A DNA stretch of 64,000 nucleotides from contig NZ_CP026309.1 of the NCBI RefSeq assembly GCF_002906575.1, forward strand, positions 2,294,001 to 2,358,000. Reading direction: 5' to 3'. Origin of the DNA: Salinigranum rubrum (GTDB taxonomy: Archaea; Halobacteriota; Halobacteria; Halobacteriales; Haloferacaceae). The position numbers were made by a program, and so were the translations under genes. A model generated the notes under the pieces. That model was given only the letters and a program-made list of their open reading frames with translations, made no database searches and was not told where the DNA came from. Shown in pieces: positions 1-56,718 of the stretch (positions are counted from its first letter, which is position 1; the number at the start of each line of letters is the position of its first letter).

Positions 1-2308
1 TGGTCGTGAGCACGCTGCCGAGGAGCGCCCCGCCGGTCCCGTAGACGGTGCGCGAGAGCGCCGAGAGCACGGTCGGCTGGAGCTCCCGCTCGTCGATGTA
101 GCGGTGGGTGAGGTGGACGGAGTAGTCGATGCCGAGGCCGATGGTCATCGCCAGCACCGTCGCGGTGAAGGCGTTGAGCGAGAAGCCCAGATAGCGCATC
201 GACCCGGCGACGAACGCGACGGTGACGACGATGGGGACGAGGTTGGCGATGCCGAGCGTCGCTCTCCCTTCGAGGACCCAGTAGATGAACACGAGGAAGG
301 CGGCGGTGCCGGCGATGGCGAGCCCGAGGCTGACGATGGCGGACTCGAAGATGATGTCCGAGATGGCCTTGAAGACGACGATACTTCCCGTCGCTGTCGC
401 GCCCATCCGGTAGCGCTCGGCGACGGCGCGGGTGTCGTCGGTGACGTCGGCGTCCGACTCGTCCGCCTTCACCGCGTAGACCACGCGAGCGTTCCGGCGG
501 TCCTCGGTGAGGTATTCGAGCGTCTGTCCGCGCGCCGGGGAGGTAAAGAGGTAGTCGTACACCTCGTCGAGGTTCTGGTCGGGGATGCCGTTGGCGTTCC
601 GGTCGTTTCGGGCCACGAGGGCGTCGAACGCGGGGTCGCGCTCCTGGTAGGCGAGGATGACGGTCACGATGGACGTCTCGCGGGCGTGACGACCGTCGCG
701 CACGAACGTGTCGGGCGGGTCCTCGCCGGCCTTCCACATCGACTCCAGCGCCGAGTTCCGCTCCATCGGTCCCTCGACGAATATCACGGTCTCGTCGTCC
801 TCGCTCGACTCGAAGTTGTCTTCGAGGAAGTTGATCGTCGCGGTGATGGTGTACTCGCCGGGCTTGAACGGCTCCGGCAGGACGTCGTAGAAGTCGGCCG
901 TCTCCTCGGGCGGGAGGAACTGCTCCTGTGAGAAACTGGTGTCGATGCCGGACGCGTAGTACGCGGCGTATCCCGACGAGACGACTGCGACGAGGAGGAG
1001 CAACACGGGAATGCGCTTGGCGAGAGAGACGCCGACCGAGAGGACGCCGCCGAGCGACGACCCCTCCGAGCCGATGGGCGACTGCGAGAGCGTCGGGATG
1101 GGGTAGCGCTCGCGGAGGTCGTCGGTGTACAGCTTCAGCGCGGGGAGGAAGACGCCGAAGACGAGGAAGGTGAAGACGATGCCGATGGCGGCGACGACGC
1201 CGAACTCCCGGATGGGGAGCAACCCGCTGACGAGGTTCGACGAGAAGCCGATGACCGTCGTGGCGGTGACGATGAAGAAGGCGACGAGAAGCTGGTCGGT
1301 CGTGGTGCGCATCGCCCGGACGGGGTCGTCCTCGACCAGTCGTTCCTCGCGGTAGCGGTTGATGGCGTGGATGCCGAAGTCGATGCCGACCGCGAGTAAG
1401 AGAGGAGGAACGGCGATGAGAATCTGCGAGAAGGCGATGCCGGCGAAGCCCATGAAGCCGAACGTCCAGATAATTGCCATCCCGAGCGCGAGGGTCCCCA
1501 AGACGAGGTCGACCAGGTCGCGGTAGGCGACGACGAGAAAGAGGATGATGAAGAACACGGCCGCGGGGACGACGATGAGCAGCGAGTCGCCGATGACGGT
1601 GCCGAACTCCTGAGAGATGACGCCGGAGCCGAAGACGACGATGTCGCCGCCGGCCGCATCGGCCACGTACACCGCTTCGAGCTGGATGGGTTCGAGCGGG
1701 CTGGCCCCGCCCTGACCCGACCCGCTGGAGATGCCGGTCGGCACCTCGTGGCGGACGATGCCCACCGTCGCCGAGGCGTACGCCGCCGTCGGGTTGAAGT
1801 CGTCGCTCAGAAGCGAGGCGAAGCCGGGGTTCTCCCGCGCGAGCGTGCCGACGGCGACCCGGATTTCACTCGGTGTCGCGCGCTCGACGGCGTCGATTTC
1901 CTCCTCCAGGGTCGCCGCCGACGGGTCGAGTTGCCGGGCGACGATGCGGGCGGCGCTCTCGGTGGAGACCACGCGCATGTCGGGGTCGTCGGCCATTCGC
2001 TCTTGCACGCGGAGCATCCGGAGGAGACCCTGCTTCGAGAGGACGTTCTCCTCGCGCTGGATGAGCTGTGTCGACCCCTCGTCGGGGGCGAACGGGTCGG
2101 AGAACTTGTCGTTGACGTCCTGCAGCGCCTGCTCCGCCGGGACCTCCTCGGAGAACTGTTCGGTCCCGGACTCGGTCGACACCGACGGGAGGCCGACGGC
2201 GAACCCGGCGGTCAGGACGAAGAAGACGAGGACGACGGTCCCCGGTCGGCCCGTGATCCACCCGTCGGCCGCGTCGATGAACCGCTGGTAGTCGAGTTTC
2301 GCTGGCAC
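1..2308 (-). CDS. RND/MMPL superfamily exporter, C-terminus beyond window edge
   Basis: Polytopic membrane exporter of the RND/MMPL superfamily, which moves lipids or other hydrophobic compounds across the cytoplasmic membrane using an ion gradient; the substrate here is unknown. I read 769 codons from a GTG that lies 9 bases after the stop of the upstream secreted-protein gene. The gene then runs off the left edge, so it is partial. A hydrophobic segment near residues 20-40 is followed by a large outside loop and a bundle of membrane helices; this pattern repeats in the second half. Each half carries the family signature, GIDFGIHAINRYR in the first and GLGIDYSVHLTHRY in the second. The tight spacing to the COG1361-like gene upstream suggests one operon. 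Confidence 0.88.
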   Translation of the reverse strand, partial: MPAKLDYQRFIDAADGWITGRPGTVVLVFFVLTAGFAVGLPSVSTESGTEQFSEEVPAEQALQDVNDKFSDPFAPDEGSTQLIQREENVLSKQGLLRMLRVQERMADDPDMRVVSTESAARIVARQLDPSAATLEEEIDAVERATPSEIRVAVGTLARENPGFASLLSDDFNPTAAYASATVGIVRHEVPTGISSGSGQGGASPLEPIQLEAVYVADAAGGDIVVFGSGVISQEFGTVIGDSLLIVVPAAVFFIILFLVVAYRDLVDLVLGTLALGMAIIWTFGFMGFAGIAFSQILIAVPPLLLAVGIDFGIHAINRYREERLVEDDPVRAMRTTTDQLLVAFFIVTATTVIGFSSNLVSGLLPIREFGVVAAIGIVFTFLVFGVFLPALKLYTDDLRERYPIPTLSQSPIGSEGSSLGGVLSVGVSLAKRIPVLLLLVAVVSSGYAAYYASGIDTSFSQEQFLPPEETADFYDVLPEPFKPGEYTITATINFLEDNFESSEDDETVIFVEGPMERNSALESMWKAGEDPPDTFVRDGRHARETSIVTVILAYQERDPAFDALVARNDRNANGIPDQNLDEVYDYLFTSPARGQTLEYLTEDRRNARVVYAVKADESDADVTDDTRAVAERYRMGATATGSIVVFKAISDIIFESAIVSLGLAIAGTAAFLVFIYWVLEGRATLGIANLVPIVVTVAFVAGSMRYLGFSLNAFTATVLAMTIGLGIDYSVHLTHRYIDERELQPTVLSALSRTVYGTGGALLGSVLTT

Positions 2309-50198: not shown

Positions 50199-51638
50199 TC
50201 AGTTGCCGCCGCCCGAGAGCGCGCTCTCGATGACCGACGAGTACGACGACTCGCCGATGTTGAACGCGACCTGCGTCATGACCTCGCCGTCGAAGCTGTC
50301 CTCGAACACGCTGGAGAACCGGTTCGATAGCTGCTGGCCGTAGTCGTTGTTGACGTACAGCGTCGACACCGAGGAGGCACCGAGGCGCTCGGCCATGACC
50401 TGCGCCATCACACGACCCTGCAGGCGGTCCGAGGGTGCGGTCCGGAAGATGAAGTCGTTGTCCTCCAGATTCGTCACCGACAGCGCCGTCGACGAGGGCG
50501 AGCAGCCGACGATTTCGTTCGGGATGGCGACCTGCTGGGAGAACGGGACGTTCACGCCAGAGGAGGCGGTGCCACAGACGAACGGGACGCCGGCGCTGGC
50601 GAGCGACTGACCGGCCGCGACGCCCGCGCTGGGTGAGGTCTGCGTGTCCTCGACCTGGGCGCTCACGGAGAGGCCGGCCGGGTTGCTCTCGTTGACGAGC
50701 GTCCCCGGGATCTGTGCGGCCTGAATCATCGGCTGGCCGGTCGACGCGAGGTCACCCGTCTCCGGCAGGAGGATTCCGAGCGAGACCTCCCGGTCGCTGC
50801 CGCCGGGGCCGCTGTCGGCCGACGGGCCGCTCCCGTCGGGGTTCTGCCCGGAGAACGACTGGGTTTCGAGGGTGGTCGTCGACTGCGACTCGACGCCCTC
50901 GAACTCCCAGATGGCGTACGCCGCCGAGGCGGGGTCGCCGTTCTGGTCGAAGTTCGTCGCCGAGGAGGCACCCTGGTAGTTGATGTCGTCGCCGTTCGCC
51001 GCGGCTTCGACGCCCTCGACGAAGTTCTGCGGGCCGACCTCCATCCCACCGGGGTTGGCGATGCGGCGCATCTGGTCCTTGACGGCGGGACCGCTGTTCT
51101 CGCCCGCTGCCGCGTTGGCGAGGATGCCGATGGCCGCGGAGTCGAACGACTGCGACGTGAACACGCCGGGCGCGGAGCCGTACTGCTCTTCGAAGAGGCT
51201 GGTGAACGCTTCCTGATTCGGGCCGCCGGCGGCCGGGGCCGTCCCGGTGACGTTCTCCATCGGATTACCCACCTGTGCGGGGAGCGCCCCGTCGCGGAGA
51301 CCGTCGGGGATGAGGATGGCGTGGCTCCCGTCAGTCTGGCTGTAGTAGTCGCGGAACAGTTGGATACCGGACTCCGGATAGCCGATGATGACGAGGCCGT
51401 CGGGACCGCTCATACTCCCGCTCGAACTGGTGCCCTCGCTCTCGGTCTCGGTCATCTCCGAACCACCGCTCTCGGTCTCGGTCATCTCCGAACCGCCGGA
51501 TTCGGTGCTTTCACCGCCGGACTCGCCACCGGATTCGCCGCCACCGTTTCCGCCCCCACCGATACAGCCGGCGAGACCAGCAACACCGGCTGCGCCGGCT
51601 CCTTTCAGGAACTTACGTCGGTCGATATCACGGACCAT
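50199..51638 (-). CDS. Branched-chain amino acid type substrate-binding lipoprotein, circularly permuted
   Basis: Extracellular ABC substrate-binding lipoprotein of 479 residues in the LivJ-like (type 1 periplasmic-binding fold) family. A Tat lipoprotein signal, DRRKFLKGAGAAGVAGLAGC, gives lipid Cys25. The rest is in unusual order: a Gly/Ser/Glu linker (about 26-78), then the canonical second half (PDGLVIIGYPESGIQLFRDY to about 261, including GVFTSQSFDSAAIGILANAA). Next come a second linker (about 262-282) and the canonical first half (REVSLGILLPETGDLASTGQ to YSSVIESAL, about 283-475). In relatives the halves are the other way round and join at ESAL-PDGL. The frame is uninterrupted. It may deliver substrate to the LivHMGF transporter upstream on the same strand. 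Confidence 0.9.
   Translation of the reverse strand: MVRDIDRRKFLKGAGAAGVAGLAGCIGGGGNGGGESGGESGGESTESGGSEMTETESGGSEMTETESEGTSSSGSMSGPDGLVIIGYPESGIQLFRDYYSQTDGSHAILIPDGLRDGALPAQVGNPMENVTGTAPAAGGPNQEAFTSLFEEQYGSAPGVFTSQSFDSAAIGILANAAAGENSGPAVKDQMRRIANPGGMEVGPQNFVEGVEAAANGDDINYQGASSATNFDQNGDPASAAYAIWEFEGVESQSTTTLETQSFSGQNPDGSGPSADSGPGGSDREVSLGILLPETGDLASTGQPMIQAAQIPGTLVNESNPAGLSVSAQVEDTQTSPSAGVAAGQSLASAGVPFVCGTASSGVNVPFSQQVAIPNEIVGCSPSSTALSVTNLEDNDFIFRTAPSDRLQGRVMAQVMAERLGASSVSTLYVNNDYGQQLSNRFSSVFEDSFDGEVMTQVAFNIGESSYSSVIESALSGGGN
51437..51500. repeat. 30-base tandem duplication in the binding-protein linker
   Basis: Two adjacent near-identical 30-base units encode SGGSEMTETE twice in the linker after the lipid anchor. 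They show the linker is recently expanded or contractile. Confidence 0.7.
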
Positions 51639-51879
51639 ATTCCGTCGATAGGTACAGCCGCTTATAAATCTACCCTTGTGAACTGAACACATATGTCTAC
51701 TCCGTTGTGTCCTTTATGATTTATTCGACGTTTTTCGCGGATGAATGAATATATCGCGGTCGGATAGGAACGCTACAGACGTCTCACGGGAGACCGCGCG
51801 CTCCGCGGGGCGTGTCTCGCCCGACGACGATGGTCGAAACCAACACGTTGAAACTGGCTGCCCGGCCCTCTCTACACCA

Positions 51880-52565
51880 ATGGCCATCCCGTCGTTCGTC
51901 ATCGGAATCGCGGGGGGACCGGCGCCGGGAAGACGACGGTCGCACGGCTCATCACGGAGAACGTCGGCGACTCGGTGACTCGGATCCCGATCGACAACTA
52001 CTACGAGGATCTGAGCCACCTCGGCTTCGAAGAGCGGAGGGCTCGGAACTACGACCACCCCTCGGCGTTCGAGTGGGACCTCCTCCGCGAGCAGATGAGC
52101 GCCCTCTTGGAGGGGCGGGCGGTCGAGATGCCCCAGTACGACTTCTCCGAGCACAACCGGAAACCCGAGCGGACGACCGTCGAGCCGACCGACGTCATCA
52201 TCCTCGAAGGGATTCTGGCGCTGCACGACGACGCGGTCAACGAGATGATGGACCTGCGGCTGTACGTCGAGACGGACGCCGACGTCCGCATCCTCCGGCG
52301 CATCCGGCGCGACGTCATCGAGCGCGGGCGGGAACTCGAGGGCGTCATCGAGCAGTACCTCTCGACGGTCAAGCCCATGCACGAGCAGTTCATCGAGCCG
52401 ACGAAGCGGAACGCGGACCTCATCATCCCCGAGGGGGCAAACAGCGTCGCGGTGAACCTCATCGAAGAGAAGGTGCGCGCGGAGGTCACCGGCAACGCAC
52501 CCCGGACGTGGGAGCGCAGCCCGGTCGAACTCGAACTCGACGCCGAGTACGACGACCGCGACTAG
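51880..52565 (+). pseudogene. udk: Uridine kinase-like P-loop protein, interrupted by a one-base frameshift
   Basis: Uridine kinase family enzyme (uridine/cytidine + NTP to UMP/CMP). From ATG 51880 the first frame reads MAIPSFVIGIAGG and then loses frame in the G6 run at 51912-51917. The other frame gives TGAGKTTVARLITENVGDSV and continues to 52565 with IPIDNYYEDLSHLGFEERRA and LEGILALHDD. Adding one G yields the P-loop GGTGAGKTT and a normal protein of about 228 residues. The break therefore falls inside the Walker A motif and would abolish activity if real. A sequencing indel is the likely cause. Confidence 0.88.
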
Positions 52566-52879
52566 GCGCGCTCGCGGACGAACTCGTCGGCGCCCTCGTA
52601 GAACCAGAGGTCGTTCGCGCGCATCGCGCGGCCGAGCGCCTGGTGGAGTTCGACGAAGTCGGCGAACTCCTCCTCCTCGACGCCCTCGAACACCTCCCGG
52701 AGCGAGACGACGCGCTCGTAGTCGATCCGGACGGGGTCGTCGCCGTACTCGGCGACGAACTCGTCGCGCGAGAGCGGGAAGTCCTCCTCCTCGTCGATCT
52801 TCTTGGCGATGATCGCGTGGCCGTACTTCCGTCGGCCCTCGCTCCCCTGTTCTCCGTCGGGGTCGTGTGGCCAGTCCAT
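52562..52879 (-). CDS. DUF5785 family protein
   Basis: A 105-residue acidic haloarchaeal protein matching the family I recall as DUF5785: MDWPHDPDGEQGSEGRRKYG, then AIIAKKIDEEEDFPLSRDEF and RIDYERVVSLREVFEGVEEE. No function is known. ATG 52879 is the family start. Its stop overlaps the udk stop by 4 bases in convergent orientation. Confidence 0.82.
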   Translation of the reverse strand: MDWPHDPDGEQGSEGRRKYGHAIIAKKIDEEEDFPLSRDEFVAEYGDDPVRIDYERVVSLREVFEGVEEEEFADFVELHQALGRAMRANDLWFYEGADEFVRERA

Positions 52880-52925
52880 ACGGGACGGTTGGGAGGGCAC
52901 CTCAAAGCCGTTACGCTGTCGGTCG

Positions 52926-53450
52926 CTATCGGGTGTCGCCCGACACGCGAGACGTGCGAACGACCGCGAGCGACACCGTCACGTCGGTCGGGACGGCCTC
53001 CTGTGTCGGCTCGGCGTCGCGCAGCGTCCGCCGCCAGTCTTCGAGGGCCGCGTCGTCCGCGGGCGTCTCGACGTGCAGCGTCGCCGACATCGACGCTACC
53101 GCCGTCCGGAAGCCCGGTGCCGCATCCGCGTCCGTCGGGACGGTCCCGTCGACGACGACCCGCACGACGTCGACGCGTCCTGTGAGCGGGTCGACGAGGC
53201 TGTGACTCGCCGCGACGAGGTAGCTCGCGAACAGTTCGAGTACCGTCCCGGCCGCCGTTGGCGCGTCCACCGAACGAGTCAACCGGAAGTCGAAGGAGTC
53301 GCGCGTGTGGGCCGGAGCGGCGGCATCTCCACGGTCTTCGCTGCGACGGGCGGCCGCGTCGACGGCGTTCACCGCTTCGACCCGATGGGTGTCCGCGGCG
53401 AGAGCCATGGGCGACGGCGCGTGCTCCGGGGCCGACGAACGGTCAGTCAC
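52926..53450 (-). CDS. OsmC-like protein lacking catalytic cysteines (paralogue 1)
   Basis: A 174-residue protein I interpret as OsmC-like. Expected elements are seen: FDFRLTRSVDAPTAAGTVLE and ASYLVAASHSLVDPLTGRVD (the helix region of OsmC), VVRVVVDG, then FRTAVASMSATLHVETPADD and a final helix-strand DVTVSLAVV. Both cysteines of OsmC/Ohr thiol peroxidases are absent, so peroxidase activity is unlikely. A paralogue lies directly upstream at 53533-54051. GTG 53450 is used; ATG 53408 in frame is an alternative. The fold call is an inference from sequence pattern. Confidence 0.6.
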   Translation of the reverse strand: MTDRSSAPEHAPSPMALAADTHRVEAVNAVDAAARRSEDRGDAAAPAHTRDSFDFRLTRSVDAPTAAGTVLELFASYLVAASHSLVDPLTGRVDVVRVVVDGTVPTDADAAPGFRTAVASMSATLHVETPADDAALEDWRRTLRDAEPTQEAVPTDVTVSLAVVRTSRVSGDTR

Positions 53451-53532
53451 GAGAAATCCACATTGGTACAGGACATTCTATCACGAAAGATACTGCCGAA
53501 CTATATGAGTCTATGGGCAGTCGGGTCAGGGC

Positions 53533-54051
53533 TCAGTCGTCCGTCACGTCACGGAGGGCCGCCCGGGGCGTGACGAGGAGGTCGACGCCGACGAGTCCGG
53601 GCACCATCGAGAACGGGACGTCGTCGCCGACGAGTCGGTCGCGCCACACCGCGAGGCGGTCGGCCGAATCGTCGGTGTGTGCCTCGATCAGCGCGCGGAC
53701 GCGGCTCTGCTCCGTGGGCGTGGCACGCCAGAGGTCGTTCTCGCCGGGCGGTTCGACGGCGCCACCGTCGAACCGTGTCATCCCGCCTTCCACCTCGACG
53801 ACCACGCGACGCACGTCGACGGCGATGTCGAGCGCGGTGGAGTGGTGCGTGGCGGCGGCGCCGAGATAGCTCGCGAGAAGTCCGAGCGCCGGTTCGTCGA
53901 AGGAGTCCCCCTCGACGACGAAGTCGAACGCGCCCGGGTCGTCGCTCGGGTCGCACTCGTTCACCGCCTCGATCCGCTTCGTGACGTGTCGGTTCACCAC
54001 TGCGGCGCGCTCGGCGTTGGACGACTGGTTCGGGGTAGTGGGTGGTGTCAT
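53533..54051 (-). CDS. OsmC-like protein lacking catalytic cysteines (paralogue 2)
   Basis: A 172-residue paralogue of the preceding gene product. Shared segments are RIEAVNECDPSDDPGAFDFV, LGLLASYLGAAATHHSTALD and IAVDVRRVVVEVEGGM, aligned with RVEAVNAVDAAARR and SYLVAASHSLVDPL of the neighbour. Again the OsmC cysteine positions are not Cys. No partner or substrate is known. ATG 54051 is preferred; GTG 54099 in frame is possible. A strong AT-rich TATA (TTTAAATAATATTGG on the minus strand, near 54121-54135) lies upstream. Confidence 0.6.
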   Translation of the reverse strand: MTPPTTPNQSSNAERAAVVNRHVTKRIEAVNECDPSDDPGAFDFVVEGDSFDEPALGLLASYLGAAATHHSTALDIAVDVRRVVVEVEGGMTRFDGGAVEPPGENDLWRATPTEQSRVRALIEAHTDDSADRLAVWRDRLVGDDVPFSMVPGLVGVDLLVTPRAALRDVTDD

Positions 54052-54119
54052 CTGGCTCGTTCCACGGACGGCGAGGGGCCACTCGCCGCGAGCGGCCACC
54101 GGTCACACGGTATTCGTTG

Positions 54120-54135
54120 CAGCCAATATTATTTA
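54120..54135 (-). promoter_or_regulatory. AT-rich promoter of the OsmC-like paralogue 2
   Basis: TTTTTAAATAATATTGG on the minus strand is one of the strongest TATA-like sequences in the window. It lies about 70-80 bases upstream of ATG 54051, which leaves a leader of roughly 45-50 bases. Confidence 0.45.
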
Positions 54136-54269
54136 AAAATAGCCGGTTAGAACGGTTCAATCGTCGTCCGATTTCGGTGGGATAATCGTCGAATATCGGG
54201 GACAGCGCCAACATCGAGGAGTCGAGGGGAACAGTCGACCTCGGTGCGACCCGCGCGAACTCCCCGTCC

Positions 54270-54992
54270 TCAGTCGAGCAGTCCCAGTTCGGCGATGAGC
54301 GGTGCCGTCTCCCTCGGGACGATCCGTCCGGCGTCCCGGCGTGCGGCGAGGAGCGGGAGGACGGTGTCGAAGTCGGCGGGCGTCCGGAGCACCGGTTGCA
54401 TCGGGAGGAAGTCGACGCCGAGGTCGGCCTCGTCACCCCGGGCGGCGAGCGTCGAGACCTCCGGCGCGGCGAAGGCGTCGGCGAAATCGATGGGCTCGGT
54501 GAACGCCGCGTAGAACACTCTCCCCTCGGGTGCGGGGCCGAGGACGACCGGCGTCGAGCGGAGCTTCATCGCCGCCGAATCGACCGTGGCTCGCGTCAGG
54601 AACGGGGCCGTCCCGCGGACGACAGCGACGGAATCCGCGTCCTCCTCGCGGAGGAGGTGCGTCGCCGTGTTCCCGGCGCGGGCAGCGTACGACGAGCCGA
54701 CCTGTACCTCGAACCGGACGTCGTCGAGGTCCGACAGGGCGTCGGCCGCGAGCGCGCGGACCGCCGCCTCCGCATCACCCTCGTCGCGTCGATGTTCTTC
54801 GGGGAGGTGTTCCTCGGGCCGGTAGTTGACGAGGAGGTCGCCCCCGGAGCGCTCGACGGCGACGAACGTGTCCTTCAGCATTGCGGCGTACAGGTCGGCG
54901 GCTTCCTCGCCCGTGAGCGGCCCGTTCTCGACGAGGTCGGAGAGCACCAGTCCGGGTCGCGGCGGGTCGCAGAGCACGCAGACGACGGTCAT
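54270..54992 (-). CDS. DUF2064 glycosyltransferase-A-like protein
   Basis: A 240-residue protein of the DUF2064/TIGR04282-type glycosyltransferase A fold, related to nucleotidyltransferases. It starts MTVVCVLCDPPRPGLVLSDL, then EEAADLYAAMLKDTFVAVER and DFLPMQPVLRTPADFDTVLP. The usual DTP-type metal motif is not clearly seen, so the activity is uncertain. ATG 54992 is used. It stands alone upstream of the OsmC-like pair on the same strand. Confidence 0.7.
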   Translation of the reverse strand: MTVVCVLCDPPRPGLVLSDLVENGPLTGEEAADLYAAMLKDTFVAVERSGGDLLVNYRPEEHLPEEHRRDEGDAEAAVRALAADALSDLDDVRFEVQVGSSYAARAGNTATHLLREEDADSVAVVRGTAPFLTRATVDSAAMKLRSTPVVLGPAPEGRVFYAAFTEPIDFADAFAAPEVSTLAARGDEADLGVDFLPMQPVLRTPADFDTVLPLLAARRDAGRIVPRETAPLIAELGLLD

Positions 54993-55100
54993 ACCGAGGA
55001 GAAAAGACGGCGTGGCCTTGAACGCGCCGCTTCGGACTCGTCGTGAGACGCTCCACGGGGAGGGTGGCGACGAACGGGTGTCCCCGAGGCCCGGCGGGGC

Positions 55101-55853
55101 TCAGCCGCCGAGGAAGTCCTGTCGAACCTGCGGGTCGTTCAAGAGGGCGTCGCCGGTGTCGACGTAGCGGTTCTTCCCGTTGGCGAGGACGTACCCCCTG
55201 TTGCAGCGACGGAGCGCCTCTTTGGCGTTCTGCTCGACCATCAGGACCGCGGTGCCGTCGTCGTTGATGGCGTCGATGCGGTCGAACATGTCGTCGACGA
55301 GGTCGGGCGCTAGCCCGGCCGAGGGCTCGTCGAGGAGGAGCAGGTCCGGTTCCAGCATGAGCGCCCGGCCCATCGCGAGCATCTGCTGCTGGCCGCCGGA
55401 CATGGTGCCGGCCTTCTGCTCTTTCCGCTCGCGGAGGATGGGGAAGCGATCGAAGACGGCTTCGAGCGCGTCCTGTGGTACTTCGTCGAGGATGTACGCG
55501 CCCATCTCGAGGTTCTCCTGCACCGACAGGGAGGCGAAGACGTTGTCGTTCTGGGGGACGTAGCCGATGCCCTTGTGGATGATCTCCTCGGGGATGAGGC
55601 CGGTGATGTCCTCGTCGGCGAACGTCACGACCCCTCCCATGTGACTGGTGAGCCCGAAGACGCTCTTCATTAGCGTCGACTTCCCCGCCCCGTTGGGTCC
55701 GACGATGGTGACGTACTCGCCACTGTCGACGAACATGTCCACGTCGGTGAGGATCTGGAGGTCGCCGTAGCCCGCGTCGAGGTTCTCGACTTCGAGGAGG
55801 CTCGTCCCCGGCGTCCGGTCCGGTTCCGTCTCCGCGTCGGTCGTCGCGCTCAT
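55101..55853 (-). CDS. livF: Branched-chain amino acid ABC transporter ATPase LivF
   Basis: ATP-binding subunit LivF of a branched-chain amino acid type ABC importer, 250 residues. It has Walker A GPNGAGKSTLMKSVFGLTSH, a Q-loop GYVPQNDNVF, the ABC signature TMSGGQQQMLAMGRALM, Walker B LLLLDEPSAGL and the H-loop region VEQNAKEALRRCNRGYV. An N-terminal acidic extension precedes LLEVENLDAGYGDLQIL. The ATG overlaps the expected livG stop (ATGA). It is the last gene of the livHMGF operon. Confidence 0.95.
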   Translation of the reverse strand: MSATTDAETEPDRTPGTSLLEVENLDAGYGDLQILTDVDMFVDSGEYVTIVGPNGAGKSTLMKSVFGLTSHMGGVVTFADEDITGLIPEEIIHKGIGYVPQNDNVFASLSVQENLEMGAYILDEVPQDALEAVFDRFPILRERKEQKAGTMSGGQQQMLAMGRALMLEPDLLLLDEPSAGLAPDLVDDMFDRIDAINDDGTAVLMVEQNAKEALRRCNRGYVLANGKNRYVDTGDALLNDPQVRQDFLGG

Positions 55854-56718
55854 ACGTTCCCCCGAGGTACGCCTCGATGACTTCCTCGTTCGACTTGATA
55901 TCGGCCGGCGTTCCCTCCGTGAGCACCGTCCCCTGGTGGAGGACGATGACGTGTTCACAGTTGTTCATGATGAGGTCCATGTCGTGCTCGACGAGCAGGA
56001 ACGTGTACCCCTGCTCGCGGAGTTCGTGGATGTGTTCGAGGAGCCGTTTCTCCAGCGAGGGGTTGACGCCGGCGAACGGCTCGTCGAGGAGGAGCATGTC
56101 CGGGTCGGTGAGGAGCGCGCGCGCCATCTCCAGCAGCTTCCGCTGACCGCCCGAGAGGTTCCCGGCGTACTCCTCGGCGATGTGATCGATCTCGAAGAAC
56201 TCGAGCGTCTCCCACGCCCGTTCGAGCAACTGCTCCTCCTGTTCGATGACCTGCCCGCGGACGCCGGGGGTGACAGAGCGCCAGAGGCTCTCGCCGACCT
56301 GTCCCTTCGGGGCGAGCATCATGTTCTCGAGGACGGTCATGTCCTTGAGTTCGCGAGCGATCTGGAACGTCCGGACGAGGCCGCGGTTGGCGATGGTGTA
56401 CGGCTCCATGCCGGTGATGTCCTCGCCGTTGAACGTCACACTGCCCGCGTCGGGGCGGTACATGCCCGTGATGAGGTTGAACGTGGTCGACTTGCCGGCG
56501 CCGTTCGGCCCGATGAGCCCCGTCAACGAGCCCTGTTCGACCTGGAACGTCGCCCCGTCGACCGCCGTGATGCCGCCGAAGGACTTCTCCAGCCCCTCGA
56601 CCCGGAGCGGGTACTCGTGTTCGATGCCGACGTCGCTCGTCGCCGAGAGCGCCTCCGCGCCCGTCTCCACGTCGTCGGGCGCACCCTGTCCGCCGCCAGT
56701 GTCGGTTGCTTCACTCAT
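55850..56718 (-). pseudogene. livG: Branched-chain amino acid ABC transporter ATPase LivG, one-base frameshift at 3' end
   Basis: ATPase LivG of the importer. Walker A is GPNGAGKSTTFNLITGMYRP, the signature NLSGGQRKLLEMARALL, Walker B LLLDEPFAGVNP and H-loop VEHDMDLIMNNC, all intact in a 289-residue protein. Near the end EVIEAYLGG should be followed by NV and a TGA overlapping the livF ATG (ATGA). The run of five C at 55859-55863 (plus strand) is one short of the six needed, so the frame reads on as TYERDDRRGDG into livF. A missing base is the simplest explanation; only the last two codons and the stop are affected. Confidence 0.9.

Follow-up and report, generated by a model that had tools for sequence, protein, structure and literature searches.

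A tandem pair of OsmC-like genes in Salinigranum rubrum encoding probably non-catalytic proteins

A 64,000-nucleotide stretch of the Salinigranum rubrum genome (NZ_CP026309.1, positions 2,294,001 to 2,358,000; hereafter the window) contains two adjacent genes whose products resemble OsmC but have no cysteine at either of the two peroxidase positions. The locus raises the question of whether such proteins are OsmC relatives at all and, if they are, whether they form a retained pair with a role other than peroxide reduction or are duplicates in decay. OsmC proteins are defined as intertwined homodimers with active sites at the interface (as set out in part of PMC5962072). Salinigranum belongs to the Haloferacaceae (NCBI), and the window's genome was compared with those of Salinigranum salinum (G064; NZ_VTOJ01000002.1, locus L092) and two other members of the genus, here G027 and G048.

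Kinship of the pair and relationship to OsmC

The first-pass annotation had described two tandem, paralogous frames with the OsmC fold, and both frames are found adjacent to one another on the minus strand:

53450-52926, minus strand: P1, GTG start, 174 aa; predicted OsmC-fold protein with no cysteine, and with Tyr77 and Glu147 in the peroxidase cysteine columns
53451..53532, minus strand: P2–P1 gap, 82 bp
54051-53533, minus strand: P2, ATG start, 172 aa; predicted OsmC-fold protein with Tyr62 and Asp144 in the peroxidase cysteine columns

For P2, the ATG at 54051 is a better start than the GTG at 54099, because the open frame of G027 extends just ~3 codons beyond the ORF from that ATG. The proposed paralogy is borne out by a BLASTP match between P1 and P2 (E 8e-4, 63 columns) and by an HMM of three P2 orthologs that, run against 4778 targets, recovers all three P1 rows (E 4e-6, 4e-4, and 0.02) before any decoy (best 0.045); hhalign of the P1 group against the P2 group gives 95.5%. 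The motifs that had been listed as common to both hold up in part: R-x-E-A-x-N segments are related between the two, but RRVVVEVEG occurs in P2 only, the P1 counterpart being VRVVVDG. Across the six rows of the P1/P2 alignment, the invariant positions are R-x-E-A-x-N, FDF, parts of the first helix, V-x-R, and W-R. P1 of S. salinum entered the alignments, HMM tests, hhalign, tree, and dN/dS from TYRVEAHN onward, and the split P1 of G048 was omitted from alignments, tree, and dN/dS. The tree places P1 and P2 in one clade (support 99/97), on long branches inside haloarchaeal OsmC; this grouping may be an artifact of long-branch attraction.

Whether the proteins are OsmC relatives is less apparent from family databases. 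P1 and P2 have no family in Pfam or NCBIfam; both fail the curated cut-off of Pfam OsmC (PF02566), which even at an E limit of 10 matches neither of them nor any of four relatives. These absences would be expected if the proteins were not OsmC and shared with it merely a common alpha/beta arrangement. Against this stands an open six-frame search of 392 genomes of the order with a profile of the pair, in which matches at E<=0.01 were found in 40 genomes, including the window's own. Nine candidates per genome were scored in this search, and of the 40 places matched in other genomes the 29 taken for a Pfam check were, without exception, Pfam OsmC. The profile also matches an OsmC gene in the same genome as the pair (C1:575188, E 1.1e-4). 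A P2 match elsewhere in that genome (C1:3665575, E 0.08) was considered as OsmC and set aside, its frame being unlike OsmC by eye.

The two proteins differ in how readily single profiles connect them to OsmC. A P1 profile reaches OsmC rows from E 2e-6, and an OsmC profile reaches P1 at 4e-5 in the window and G027 and at 0.03 in S. salinum. For P2, the best OsmC row (0.097) falls behind a shuffled decoy (0.045), and the OsmC profile matches window P2 at 0.065, with the best decoy at 0.22; by plain HMM, then, the link of P2 to OsmC appears weaker than that of P1 and does not beat decoys. In profile–profile comparison with 38 OsmC rows, hhalign gives 93.9% for P2 (E 1.6e-7; best of 100 column-shuffled controls 6.4%) and 91.1% for P1 (E 1e-6; best of 100 controls 1.4%), scores that are biased upward because most of the rows were found by the pair profile (28 rows) or by P1 (L014), the 392-genome search being the open one. 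The same 38 rows, from which L033 was omitted for an internal stop, served for the cysteine columns, HMM tests, and tree; against nine OsmC rows, the pair scores 89.7%. Single-sequence searches were less informative: outside the genus, one of five weak P1 matches (L014) and none of three weak P2 matches resembled OsmC by eye, and sequence searches of the PDB with either protein or the pair returned chance rows or none. Chance resemblance is nevertheless rejected, both by the shuffled-profile controls and by the exclusively OsmC list of examined matches. Taken together, the profile comparisons support a relationship of P1 and P2 to haloarchaeal OsmC, and thus homology at the level of the superfamily.

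Predicted structures are consistent with this sequence evidence, although the structural matches by themselves are weak and not decisive. AlphaFold models built from four-row alignments are of moderate confidence (pLDDT 67.3 for P2 and 69.3 for P1; pTM 0.63 and 0.65), and both show the element order of OsmC, strand–strand–helix–strand–strand–helix–strand, with an additional helix in the first loop of P1. The best Foldseek match in the PDB is for both proteins the OsmC-like 1lql (E 6.6e-3 for P2, 3.3e-4 for P1), and VIA-align places the OsmC-like 3cje first for both (Z 8.4; rmsd 3.7 over 112 residues for P2, 3.1 over 114 for P1). TM-scores of the models to OsmC are low, however, at 0.37–0.48; cofilin stands at Foldseek rank 3 for P2; and in VIA-align the SAM synthetases that come next (Z 8.1 for P2, 7.4 for P1), as well as, for P2, MamB/MamM-type domains, lie within ~1 Z unit of OsmC. 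Such competing matches are what a generic alpha/beta arrangement would produce. Since the open six-frame search nonetheless led to OsmC in every match checked, and since P1 and P2 each far outscore all shuffled hhalign controls, the OsmC fold claimed for the pair is upheld, and a non-OsmC identity appears very improbable.

Replacement of the catalytic residues

Catalysis in Ohr/OsmC depends on a triad of Cys, Arg, and Glu, with the active site at the dimer interface (according to part of PMC5962072). Among the 38 OsmC rows, the peroxidatic column holds Cys in all 38 and the resolving column in 35. In the order window, G027, and S. salinum, the peroxidatic column instead reads Tyr, Tyr, Tyr in P2 and Tyr, Tyr, His in P1, and the resolving column reads Asp, Asp, Cys in P2 and Glu, Glu, Ser in P1; in the hhalign alignments, Tyr62 of P2 lies opposite the peroxidatic Cys by eye. 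The single cysteine of window P2, C33, is N-terminal of the core and distant from both peroxidase sites. The reported absence of cysteine at both positions therefore describes the window pair correctly, while P2 of S. salinum departs from it in having a resolving Cys. Because Tyr and Asp or Glu replace both cysteines, and given the published triad and interface site, thiol peroxidase chemistry is not expected in the window pair on the basis of these alignments.

It is possible to imagine that redox or peroxidase work has been kept by way of another residue, whether the Tyr at the old Cys site or the two cysteines of S. salinum P2. Consistent with such an idea, Glu53 of window P2 aligns by eye with the catalytic Glu, and P2 of S. 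salinum carries Cys67 six residues past the peroxidatic site as well as Cys148 in the resolving column. However, the orthologs have no cysteine in common, P1 has none at all in either the window or S. salinum, and by eye P1 is without an acidic residue at the Glu column; retained redox function thus seems improbable. The Arg of R-x-E-A-x-N is invariant in the six P1/P2 rows and might correspond to Arg19 of Ohr.

Distribution, evolutionary rate, and genomic setting

A survey of haloarchaeal homologs for the pairing had been proposed. In searches of 148 genomes of the family with each protein, clear relatives were recovered only in Salinigranum, where P1 is present in 4/4 genomes and P2 in 3/4. 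G048 lacks P2, and its P1 is spread over two frames; in S. salinum, the first 138 of the 171 codons of the P1 frame include no ATG, GTG, or TTG, and the expected N-terminus sits in a different frame. Both genes are apparently intact in two of the four genomes, and pairing is accordingly patchy. That copies are broken in two of four species points to a dispensable pair, and the patchy conservation weakens the case for a heterodimer with a new role that had been put forward.

These observations also introduce the main rival to a retained function, namely plain decay: the pair would consist of OsmC copies that have lost their active site, have no present function, and are disappearing from the genus. 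The rate of evolution bears on this in both directions. By the Nei–Gojobori method, dN/dS is 0.40–0.58 for P2 and 0.52–0.67 for P1, and remains <1 in all six pairwise comparisons (0.40 and 0.52, respectively, for window versus G027), which argues against decay. However, these values are ~3–5x those of the neighboring DUF2064 and DUF5785 genes (0.11–0.19, from three pairs for DUF2064, including G048 but not G064, and one pair for DUF5785), and fast evolution of this kind is at least as compatible with relaxed constraint as with a new role. Decay would further account for the missing P2 and two-frame P1 of G048 and for the P1 of S. salinum without a usable start. It would not lead one to expect R-x-E-A-x-N, FDF, and W-R to be invariant over six rows, nor conservation of the promoter-like block upstream of P2 described below. 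It is also possible that the broken copies are assembly errors, because the window's own uridine kinase gene (about 51880-52565, plus strand) lies in two frames, divided at a G run near its P-loop; that division may itself be either a sequencing error or a genuine frameshift. Plain decay appears a serious but clearly lesser prospect than retention. A recent viral or plasmid origin was considered and rejected: a query with the P2 family found no relative in viral contigs, in a weak scan with two short peptide patterns; a plasmid collection gave no match for P1 or P2; and PHROGs gave chance-level rows only.

The pair occupies a slot between two genes whose arrangement extends beyond the genus:

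54270..54992, minus strand: DUF2064/CofC-like gene, with matches below curated cut-offs; one flank of the conserved slot
54133..54162, minus strand: P2 promoter-like block, GATTGAAC, 12 bases, CTATTTTTAA (TATA-like)
52562..52900, minus strand: DUF5785 gene, the opposite flank of the slot

Twenty-seven loci around DUF5785 were recovered from the family outside the genus, nine of them with DUF2064; the reach was 1.5 kb, so that the other 18 are uninformative on DUF2064, and a tRNA scan covered 21 of the 27. All nine loci with both genes (L065, L066, L068, L069, L073, L074, L080, L084, and L085) carry tRNA-Ser(UGA) between them. No tRNA was found in the Salinigranum slot (window 52900-54270), and a near copy of the slot tRNA (93–94% identity) lies elsewhere in all four Salinigranum genomes. 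Rfam gave no match at E up to 1 over 51500-56000, and a known RNA at the locus was rejected. In three loci of other genera, the slot encodes, on the minus strand, a small protein that carries two CxxC motifs (CENCH..., and CAACG or CAVCG):

L066, about 1899-2120, minus strand: two-CxxC protein
L073, about 1372-1590, minus strand: two-CxxC protein
L068, within 1895-2272, minus strand: two-CxxC protein

Each of the two genes had been credited with an AT-rich upstream region of its own. For P2 this stands: the block at 54101-54160 has a GC of 0.40, within the lowest 0.2% of 60-bp windows, and is partly conserved in three species. Also upstream of P2, GATTGAAC and CTATTTTTAA, 12 bases apart, occur at the same positions and spacing in three Salinigranum species, and this pattern with its spacing has a single match in the whole genome; the block at 54133-54162 is a candidate promoter. 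For P1 the claim is not general, because the P2–P1 gap is AT-rich in the window (GC 0.48) and G027 (0.49), but the equivalent stretch of S. salinum is not (0.71). The sequence preceding P1 is far less conserved than that upstream of P2, and poorly so in S. salinum, and P2 and P1 may form a single transcript.

Preferred reading and comparison with known systems

The reading that we favor, with a probability of roughly 0.6, takes P2 and P1 for a tandem pair confined to Salinigranum, consisting of OsmC-fold proteins without catalytic function that originated by duplication of an OsmC gene and persist under weak purifying selection. The duplication would have taken place in the stem lineage of the genus, and thiol chemistry would have been lost from the two copies. 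Their products would have been retained under weak purifying selection; they would probably form dimers of the OsmC type and bind a ligand or partner instead of reducing peroxide. P1 and P2 may form a heterodimer. A fuller scheme is doubtful: the pair would combine as a cysteine-free OsmC heterodimer, expressed from the conserved GATTGAAC/TATA promoter, and its two former active-site pockets, with Tyr where the Cys used to be, would bind a ligand and serve as sensor or carrier.

If the pair is functional, it would demonstrate that archaea can retain the OsmC fold of a known thiol peroxidase in the absence of thiol chemistry, and that such a pair can originate inside a single genus. Should the genes instead be in decay, they still represent distant OsmC relatives missed by Pfam and NCBIfam, and genomes will list them as hypothetical proteins. 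A thin check of titles and abstract openings in the open-licence literature gave no precedent for a cysteine-free OsmC pair; FTN_1133 was considered as one and set aside, as its own abstract states that it is not OsmC.

The genus also harbors a further two OsmC genes in tandem (G000:C1:1649507-1650282 in the window's genome, with counterparts in G027 and G048; G064:C1:2270774-2271559). Its members lie near each other in all four genomes and have both cysteines in the rows read, and in G064 one copy is apparently broken up.

Among the structural matches of the P1 and P2 models is 1ml8, which we take to be E. coli YhfA. YhfA-type proteins form a group of the Ohr/OsmC family without known peroxidase activity (as described in parts of PMC4069020 and PMC5962072). 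They are likened to the pair here by fold, as OsmC-fold proteins with no demonstrated peroxidase role.

Closer to hand are two OsmC proteins of Salinigranum, L026 in the window's genome (G000:C1:575176-575484) and L022 in S. salinum (G064:C1:850097-850408), which keep the peroxidatic Cys, have Asn in place of the resolving Cys, and possibly form a one-Cys subgroup of OsmC. As in P1, the second helix contains WRR and the resolving Cys is absent. Unlike the pair, they retain the peroxidatic Cys and score above the Pfam OsmC cut-off, and the tree does not join them with P1 and P2.

Compared with haloarchaeal OsmC at large (PF02566; for example L034, L035, and L026 of the same genome), the pair is distinguished by the absence of Cys from both catalytic columns, of the NPVE motif, and of a direct Pfam match, as well as by its two tandem copies and different gene context. 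What it shares with these proteins is the order of secondary structure elements, profile similarity, an F-[DE]-F-V-V strand, and a Trp in the region where the second helix starts.
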